Below, in pieces: positions 1 to 39,975 of a DNA stretch of 39,975 nucleotides. The first letter of the stretch is position 1; each line of letters starts with the position of its first letter. The translations under genes and the position numbers were made by a program. The DNA lies in NCBI GenBank assembly GCA_913056175.1, contig CAJXLM010000023.1, positions 1-39,975 on the forward strand, written 5' to 3'. Origin of the DNA: an uncultured Opitutia bacterium. GTDB taxonomy: Bacteria; Verrucomicrobiota; Verrucomicrobiia; Opitutales; Puniceicoccaceae. The notes beneath the pieces are model-generated. The model ran no database searches, was not told the DNA's origin, and saw only the letters and a list, made by a program, of their open reading frames with translations.

Positions 1-158
1 CGCGCGGGGCGGCGGGGCGTTCGGGGTGCCTTTGGGGGTCGGGGCGTTGCGGGCCTGTGGGCATGGGAAGCGTCTGCCGCGCATCAGGGGAGTGGGCGGA
101 GCCCATGGCGGGGGAGCGGGCGGGGGCCCGCAGCAGGGGAGGGGTTCGGGTTTTTTCG
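1..158. repeat. 158-bp G-rich direct repeat, copy 1
   Basis: Base-by-base comparison at an offset of 351 shows that 1-158 matches 352-509 with about seven to eight substitutions and no indels, roughly 95% identity. The block ends with a run of six T (151-156), after which the copies diverge. It is G-rich on the plus strand with several runs of four or five G. The copy begins at the window edge and may extend further left. Confidence 0.9.
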
Positions 159-189
159 AGGAGTTCAACGAGCCTTCGCCTTGCGGCGT

Positions 190-348
190 TTCTCTGTCGG
201 GCCTCCCGGCAGATCCCGGCCGCGCTTTGCAGCGCTTCCCTGCCGTGCCTCACGGCATATCCATGTGGCGCCTTTCAACGTTTCCATCCCGTGCACCAAC
301 CCATCCATGCCACGCCTTTTGGCGCTTCCCTGCGCTTCGGCTCGGGGT
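190..348. repeat. Hairpin minisatellite array, block A (about seven 21-23 bp units)
   Basis: Units begin at about 190, 213, 236, 259, 282, 303 and 326, giving a period of mostly 23 bp. Each starts with a pyrimidine-rich or ATCC-type spacer (TTCCCTG, ATCCATG, ATCCCGG). Most continue with a short GC-rich inverted repeat closed by a 3-4 base loop, for example TGCCGTG-cct-CACGGCA at 241-257 and CGCC-tttt-GGCG at 315-324. Units are degenerate in sequence but several preserve pairing by compensating changes, as expected if the hairpin matters more than the exact bases. Confidence 0.75.
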
Positions 349-351
349 AGT

Positions 352-509
352 CGCGCGGGGCGGCGGGGCGTTCGGGGTGCCTTTGGGGGTCGGGGCGTTG
401 CGGGCCTGTGGGCATGGGAAGCGTCTGCGGCGCATCATGGGAGTGGGCGGGGCCCATGGCGGGGGAGCGGGCTGAGGCCCGCGGCAGGGGATGGGTTCGG
501 GTTTTTTCG
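352..509. repeat. 158-bp G-rich direct repeat, copy 2
   Basis: This is the second copy of the block at 1-158, shifted by exactly 351 bp. It is identical for the first ~77 positions and has scattered single substitutions afterwards. It is followed directly by the second hairpin array, so block and array were probably duplicated together. Confidence 0.9.
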
Positions 510-519
510 GGGAATCATG

Positions 520-629
520 CCCAGACGGCGCCTTTCGGCGCATCCATGCGATGCTCCCGGCACATCCACGCTGCGCCTCTGGCGCTTCCCTGCGGTGCCT
601 TCGGCACTTCCCGGGCCTGCCTTCGCGCG
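520..629. repeat. Hairpin minisatellite array, block B (five 22-bp units)
   Basis: Units start at 520, 542, 564, 586 and 608, an exact 22-bp period. The hairpin cores differ but pair well: GCGCC-tttc-GGCGC (528-541), GCGCC-tct-GGCGC (573-585) and GTGCC-ttc-GGCAC (595-607). The spacers are ATCCATG, ATCCACG and TTCCCTG. The array decays after ~629. Block B is one base shorter per unit than block A, so the two arrays have drifted or expanded separately since the compound unit was duplicated. Confidence 0.78.
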
Positions 630-716
630 CACCGCTGTCCCTCGGCTGTGAATTCCGTTTGGCGTTCCGCTTGGCGTTGTCAAACTTCCCTCGTTCGCGG
701 GGAGGGGGCAGGGGAA

Positions 717-1046
717 TCAGGGGAGGATCCAGAGGGCGAGGTAGAGGGTGGCCATCCCGCCGAGGATGGAGGCGAGGACGTTGCGGGTGGTGCAGCCAAG
801 GGCGAGAGTGACGAGGGCGGCGGCGAGCCGGGCGGGATCGGGCTCCCCGCCGGTGGCCTCGGGCCAGAGGACCAGCGGAGCGACCAACCCGGGGAGCACG
901 GCCACGGGGGTATAGCGGAGGTGGCGGAGCACCCATTCGGGAAAGGTTTTCCGGCCGAAGAGCCCGAGAAAGGACCAGCGGATCAGGTAGGTCCCGAGGG
1001 CGAGAAGGACAATGACCAGCCAGACCTTGCCGCCGTTCAGCTCCAC
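717..1046 (-). CDS. azlD: AzlD family branched-chain amino acid exporter subunit
   Basis: Small membrane subunit (109 residues) of the AzlCD exporter, which in characterised bacteria exports branched-chain amino acids or their analogues. Three to four hydrophobic segments are visible: residues ~7-20, ~47-60, ~72-85 and ~95-107. The family-typical early stretch TYLIRWSFL is present, as is the segment PVAVLPGLVAPLVL. The start is taken as GTG because a strong ribosome site (AAAGGGGG) lies just upstream. The start overlaps the end of azlC by about 10 bases, as expected for translationally coupled partners. It is the last gene of pyrD-azlC-azlD. The substrate is inferred from the family only. Confidence 0.85.
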   Translation of the reverse strand: MELNGGKVWLVIVLLALGTYLIRWSFLGLFGRKTFPEWVLRHLRYTPVAVLPGLVAPLVLWPEATGGEPDPARLAAALVTLALGCTTRNVLASILGGMATLYLALWILP

Positions 1047-36521: not shown

Positions 36522-39746
<3,225 letters not shown>

Positions 39747-39975
39747 GCCCGCATCCCCCGCTACCCCCCCTCCCGCCCACGCAACCCACCCCACACCCCT
39801 CAACCCGCCACCCCGTCCAGCCCAACAACACCCCTCAACCCGCCACCCCAACACACACCCAGAACCCACCCCGCACCCCCTCCGTCCACCCATCTCCGCC
39901 CCTCCCCGTCCCCTCCCACGCAGGCTCGCCCCGCATCCCCCACAACCCCCCATCCCCGCCTCCTCCCACCAAGGC
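39747..39975 (+). terminator. C-rich, G-poor tail; candidate Rho-dependent termination region
   Basis: By hand count, this 229-base stretch has about 147 C (64%) and only 22 G (10%), and no open gene. A long, unstructured C-rich, G-poor transcript directly after a stop codon is the classical form of a Rho utilisation site. No hairpin with a T-run is found after carB, so a Rho-type end would fill that role. The minus strand carries many runs of three or more G and could form G-quadruplexes. The region runs to the window edge. Confidence 0.45.
39793..39849. repeat. 22-bp direct repeat in the C-rich tail
   Basis: An identical 22-bp sequence beginning ACACCCCTCAACCC appears at 39793-39814 and at 39828-39849, a 35-bp offset. 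No coding function is seen. Confidence 0.85.

Follow-up and report, generated by a model that had tools for sequence, protein, structure and literature searches.

The first 629 bases of the window (the whole stretch of 39,975 nucleotides analysed, which is the complete contig C23 of an 84-contig, 2.61-Mb genome) are the 3' tail of a long hairpin array, about two dozen of which are present in this uncultured Opitutales-type bacterium. They are BIME-type arrays belonging to a multi-copy gene-plus-array module, in which a conserved RAYT-fold gene lacks the catalytic tyrosine and the HUH motif; its protein would probably now serve as a hairpin-DNA binder. The system belongs with the REP/BIME-RAYT systems, as a variant for which no earlier description has been found in the open-access literature searched. 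Because the window contig begins within its array, we infer that the RAYT-type gene of this array lies off the contig edge, out of sight. For the same reason, the REP/RAYT layout was invisible to the sequence-only reading of the window.

Anatomy and distribution of the arrays

The array in the window and the opposite contig end comprise the following features.

1..158, plus strand: G-rich block copy 1; a lead region, then REP-like hairpins in plus orientation
93-105 (TGGGCggaGCCCA) and 116-131 (GCGGGCggggGCCCGC): best-kept hairpins of block copy 1, with a GGGGA-type head before each
159..351, minus strand: first set of 22-23-bp units behind the block, whose REP-like hairpins (222-235, 241-257) point the other way; the linker CTGCGCTTCGGCTCGGGGTAGT follows
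352..509, plus strand: second copy of the G-rich block (96% identity with the first), with hairpins at 444-456 and 467-482
510..629, minus strand: final inverted hairpin units (528-541, 573-585, 595-607); the array ends at ~610-629, with single-copy sequence beyond
39675..39975, no strand: C-rich end of the contig, with C at 0.63 and G at 0.09, resembling the C-rich 5' flanks of other gene copies

The two blocks differ at 7 of 158 positions and recur with a tandem period of 351 bp, which bears out the compound repeat of near-identical blocks and 22-23-bp hairpin units described in the sequence-only reading. The downstream units occupy 159-351 and 510 to about 610, and their exact hairpins have stems of 5-7 bp. 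The units at 159..351 have been assigned minus orientation because that is the strand on which their head consensus reads. Across the arrays, the compound unit measures roughly 200-376 bp and consists, in order, of a G-rich lead, two to three hairpins on a GGCA(G/T)GGGA head, a linker like ATGGGTTCGGGTTTTTTCGGGGAATTCAACC, and several hairpins in the opposite orientation. The stems of the block hairpins are GCGCC, GTGGGC, and GCGGGC. Since the head lies on the plus strand in the block and the same kind of head lies on the minus strand in the downstream units, the G-rich block and the tiny hairpins are one kind of hairpin in two orientations. A coding repeat has been ruled out, as the block spacing is distributed over all three frames. 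A search of Rfam gives no match within the window. The extremely C-rich contig end at 39675-39975 contains short tandem repeats, and it may lie near the next gene copy, itself outside the window.

The genome has been read as stretches amounting to ~1.53 of its 2.61 Mb, both ends of every contig included. The 158-bp block has 46 blastn matches in this genome, and an HMM built from them gives 108 matches in array stretches, a few of which are minus-strand matches to downstream units. More than 100 diverged block copies are thus found in 27 array stretches at more than 20 distinct loci, so the wider block search that had been proposed shows that the repeat is not local. Almost every array sits where a contig ends, and the plus strand of its block is directed into unique sequence. 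In pattern and HMM scans, the REP-like hairpins are almost confined to the arrays, the exceptions being an array on C36 and a single unit on C65. The C36 array (C36:600-1500, L132) has no RAYT-like gene before it and is located ~600 bp ahead of the 5' end of a different copy of the gene. The C65 unit (C65:2972-2995, L058) is a lone REP-like hairpin directly behind a gene and is followed by GGGGTCAG-type short repeats. At C9:1-900 and at the right end of C27, an IS-transposase-like sequence abuts or lies within the array.

The hairpins are far more frequent than the base composition predicts. Counting exact stems of at least 5 with loops of 3-5, the 27 array stretches (24.3 kb) hold 246 hairpins versus 94 +/- 9 in dinucleotide shuffles, a 2.6-fold excess (z = 16). 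In DNA folding of five typical units, the expected hairpins form at -6 to -8.7 kcal/mol. RNA folding of the whole unit in window 1-351 is unexceptional (z -0.96 and -1.45). The proposal of a structured minisatellite family holds: the repeats occupy multiple loci, are enriched in hairpins, and travel with a mobile-type gene.

The kept pairing of varying stems has been measured in 156 distinct downstream units, which form 711 standard pairs versus 630 +/- 8 when their 3' halves are shuffled. Double changes that compensate each other number 51 in these units, and single changes that break a pair number 61. The excess sits in pairs 5:16 (CG 88, TA 35) and 8:13 (CG 121, TA 14), and weakly in 3:18, and its limitation to three pairs points to a few inherited founder stem types. 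The homologous second and third hairpins of the block covary hardly at all (z 0.5 and 1.3) and show decay, not compensation. The covariation of the downstream units is therefore real but rests on few stem types; the noted stem variation with kept pairing holds to this extent, while pair-by-pair compensation throughout does not.

The gene in front of the arrays

One shared gene, whose 3' end encodes ...VPVEEVDIPLWGAQPWRRTMLK followed by the stop, precedes the array at 19 contig ends, and only a few tens of bases separate its stop codon from the array. The 5' end of this gene is present at 26 contig ends, and the genome therefore carries at least 26 copies. The identity of the arrays and their linkage to the gene are solid. 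No copy of the amplified family has been assembled end to end, as the contigs break within the gene; the junction of gene and array is thus known at the 3' side only, and ~17 residues in the middle of the protein (~300 aa) are unseen. Full-length diverged paralogues are encoded on C24, C19, C39, C40, C9, C1, C55, and C6.

Most of the 5' ends carry the motif GGAATATAATGACAGGCTTT..CTTGAC, ~75 nt ahead of the ATG. The 200 bases preceding this motif are very rich in C (C 0.50, G 0.16), with a median at the 99th percentile of skew. No block is found in the 5' flanks of the gene copies, except for the C36 array ~600 bp away. A hairpin at the left end (AAGCCYG..CAGGCTT) has been considered as a feature of the element and rejected, since it is conserved only in part across the 26 copies. 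A motif like GGGACAGGCTAA..TTGAC is observed 40-80 nt ahead of many Opitutales RAYT genes (for example, L242, L246, L252, L260, and L261), and the HUH-less copies carry the similar upstream motif TGACAGGCTTT..CTTGAC.

Compared with the PDB, the predicted structure of the full-length C24 paralogue (pLDDT 86.7, pTM 0.86) is closest to the hairpin-bound E. coli RAYT in 4ER8, a complex with REP DNA (Z 12.8, 156 residues), and next closest to IS608 at Z 8.7. The model thus assigns the paralogue to the Y1 transposase/RAYT fold, and the protein is also alignable with HUH-positive relatives. The same protein scores below the profile cut-offs, with 22.8 bits against NF047646 (REP_Tyr_transpos; cut-off 80) and 14.9 bits against PF01797 (Y1_Tnp; cut-off 23), versus 58 and 43.2 for an HUH-positive relative. 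A search of the genome with the Pfam Y1_Tnp profile gives nothing at E 0.001. The paralogues, together with two distant HxH/Tyr proteins, have been recovered by a protein search with the RAYT of a relative.

The HUH motif, SNHFH in the relatives, is replaced with TGIQ, RGIQ, EREVQ, or similar in the paralogues. It is absent from seven full-length paralogues and from the amplified 5' parts long enough to cover it, and it is retained in the C6 paralogue and the sampled relatives. The YIDLNPVRAG of the relatives reads YRASVQ(S/T)APVRAG, so that the catalytic tyrosine is replaced; the aligned position is non-Tyr in all eight paralogues and in the amplified copy on C29. In the tree, the genome's own paralogues form one clade (99/95) and the HUH-less ones another within it (100/98), with the HUH-positive, Tyr-less C6 protein as sister. 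This topology suggests that the tyrosine was lost before the HUH motif, an order that the long branches keep at the level of a suggestion.

All of the gene fragments are open, and no broken copies are found. Nearly all copies end in an identical stretch of 26 residues, encoded by differing codons. Among the copies, pS is 0.16-0.18, and dN/dS is 0.014-0.026 for the 3' parts and 0.12 for the 5' parts, values taken from non-independent pairs and short stretches. Within these limits, strong purifying selection on a gene lineage without HUH and tyrosine is solid, and the copies are neither newly made nor degenerating.

Relatives and known systems

The sequence-only reading recognised no CRISPR, IS element, or REP layout. 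The CRISPR part has stood, as the units are diverged, there is no spacer pattern, and the neighbouring gene is RAYT-like. The REP part has been overturned: the layout is BIME-like, with REP-like hairpins in both orientations and linkers, attached to a RAYT-type gene. In known systems, inverted REPs that carry GT(A/G)G heads flank the RAYT gene, and one third of the RAYTs are tied to BIMEs (Nunvar 2010, PMC2817692). The present arrays resemble these REPtrons (E. coli TnpA-REP, Pseudomonas REPs; also NAR 2021, PMC8266576) in their high-copy, short, GC-rich, imperfect palindromes, each with a conserved head to one side of its stem, in the use of both orientations with linkers (two to three plus hairpins, then several minus hairpins per unit), and in the linkage to a RAYT-fold gene. 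The Pseudomonas REP TGTGGGAGCGGGC..GCCCGCGAA (PMC2817692) is close in format to the array units. However, the head is (G/T)GGGA, within the consensus GGCA(G/T)GGGA, instead of GT(A/G)G. The hairpins are also almost confined to the arrays behind the gene instead of being dispersed between genes, and none has been seen in front of the gene, so that the array is 3' only and the gene does not lie between two inverted REPs. Finally, the gene is present in at least 26 copies and has lost HUH and tyrosine. The IS200/IS605 transposases (IS608, ISDra2) share the Y1 core fold at lower similarity (Z 8.7 and below), but the present module has no defined right end seen and no catalytic residues.

Across the order, 38 of 177 genomes contain homologues at E 1e-10, frequently as many copies, and those examined mostly keep HUH and tyrosine. 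A RAYT protein of one genome in the same family matches a protein of Opitutia bacterium UBA4506 at 100% identity. The arrays are restricted to this genome among those searched. In 52 genomes (its own and relatives from beyond its genus), the block DNA gives elsewhere only one 25-base match, in G037. No array of the hairpin-block kind is found in the flanks of some 70 genes of relatives, or at the loci read behind their HUH-positive RAYTs. In the related Opitutus terrae, GTAG repeats are abundant (De Nocera 2013, PMC3733652). The Opitutaceae MAG Gx485_bin97 likewise has many RAYT copies with downstream palindromic repeats (L271, L266, L257, and L256), but these are inverted palindromes with the classic GTAG head, and its RAYT keeps HUH and tyrosine. 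A previous survey set aside proteins without the core motifs as probably non-functional (PMC6006769), and in TnpA-REP, mutating the tyrosine to phenylalanine abolishes cleavage (PMC8266576). In the open-access literature searched, no report of a multiplied, conserved RAYT lineage without HUH and tyrosine has been found.

Proposed function and spread of the module

Based on these observations, we propose that the protein would bind hairpin DNA, with the oriented hairpins directly behind its own gene as cognate sites, and that binding would occur while the strand is single and the hairpins are exposed. Array growth may come from slippage of the ~300-bp compound unit or its unequal exchange, and gene and array would spread jointly, through recombination or the aid of a helper nuclease, and not by self-catalysed transposition. 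Hairpin binding, this route of spread, and any benefit are what we infer. Tentatively, a catalysis-dead transposase lineage may have become a hairpin-binding protein present in tens of copies, each with its own array of binding sites, forming a domesticated chromosome-wide system that multiplies without a nuclease of its own. Counted against the preferred reading are a head that is neither GTAG nor GTGG, a junction of gene and array known at the 3' side only, the C36 array with no gene ahead, and the low dN/dS, which is also typical of a cis-acting mobile element; as such an element would give equally low values, dN/dS alone is no proof of domestication.

It is unlikely that the module moves itself, with the RAYT-like protein transposing through a non-canonical active site and the low dN/dS reflecting selection for movable copies. 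The copies at different sites share the left motif, lie in mostly unrelated flanks, and include no broken gene, all of which would fit self-mobility. However, both histidines and the tyrosine are swapped for non-equivalent residues in the whole lineage, the pS values leave no room for a very recent burst, and some pairs of flanks show patchy upstream similarity over 50-150 bp, as in segmental duplication. It is quite improbable that the arrays are cis-acting intergenic elements kept by the host as transcript ends, mRNA stabilisers, or sites for host DNA-binding proteins, with passive linkage to the gene. Their position directly past a stop codon agrees with such roles, which have been proposed for REPs generally (PMC3733652), but there is no terminator-like site in window 1-900, and the arrays are absent from ordinary operons, occurring only by the RAYT-type gene, with the C36 array and the C65 unit as exceptions. 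In favour of a chance local duplication or an assembly artefact, the assembly is fragmented, the window array lies where a contig ends, and the order within arrays may be wrong; for the array family as a whole, this reading is already refuted by the diverged multi-locus copies and the hairpin excess.

If the protein is a hairpin binder as preferred here, a conserved lineage free of nuclease residues (dN/dS 0.01-0.12, at least 26 copies by hairpin arrays) would separate cutting from binding in nature. It bears on what RAYTs do for their hosts and renders the domestication hypothesis directly testable. A possible source of the helper nuclease is the pair of distant HxH-and-Tyr proteins encoded elsewhere in the genome, on C7 and C8, which retain NHSH and YVDLNPVRA. 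They could be candidate trans-acting helpers; the flanks of their genes contain none of the array's hairpin units. On C8, the RAYT-like gene retaining HxH and tyrosine is followed by unrelated repeats of the form GGGGACGAGGAGAGGGCGCTTTTCCG..ATGGGTGTCTGTG (L303:2771-3554).
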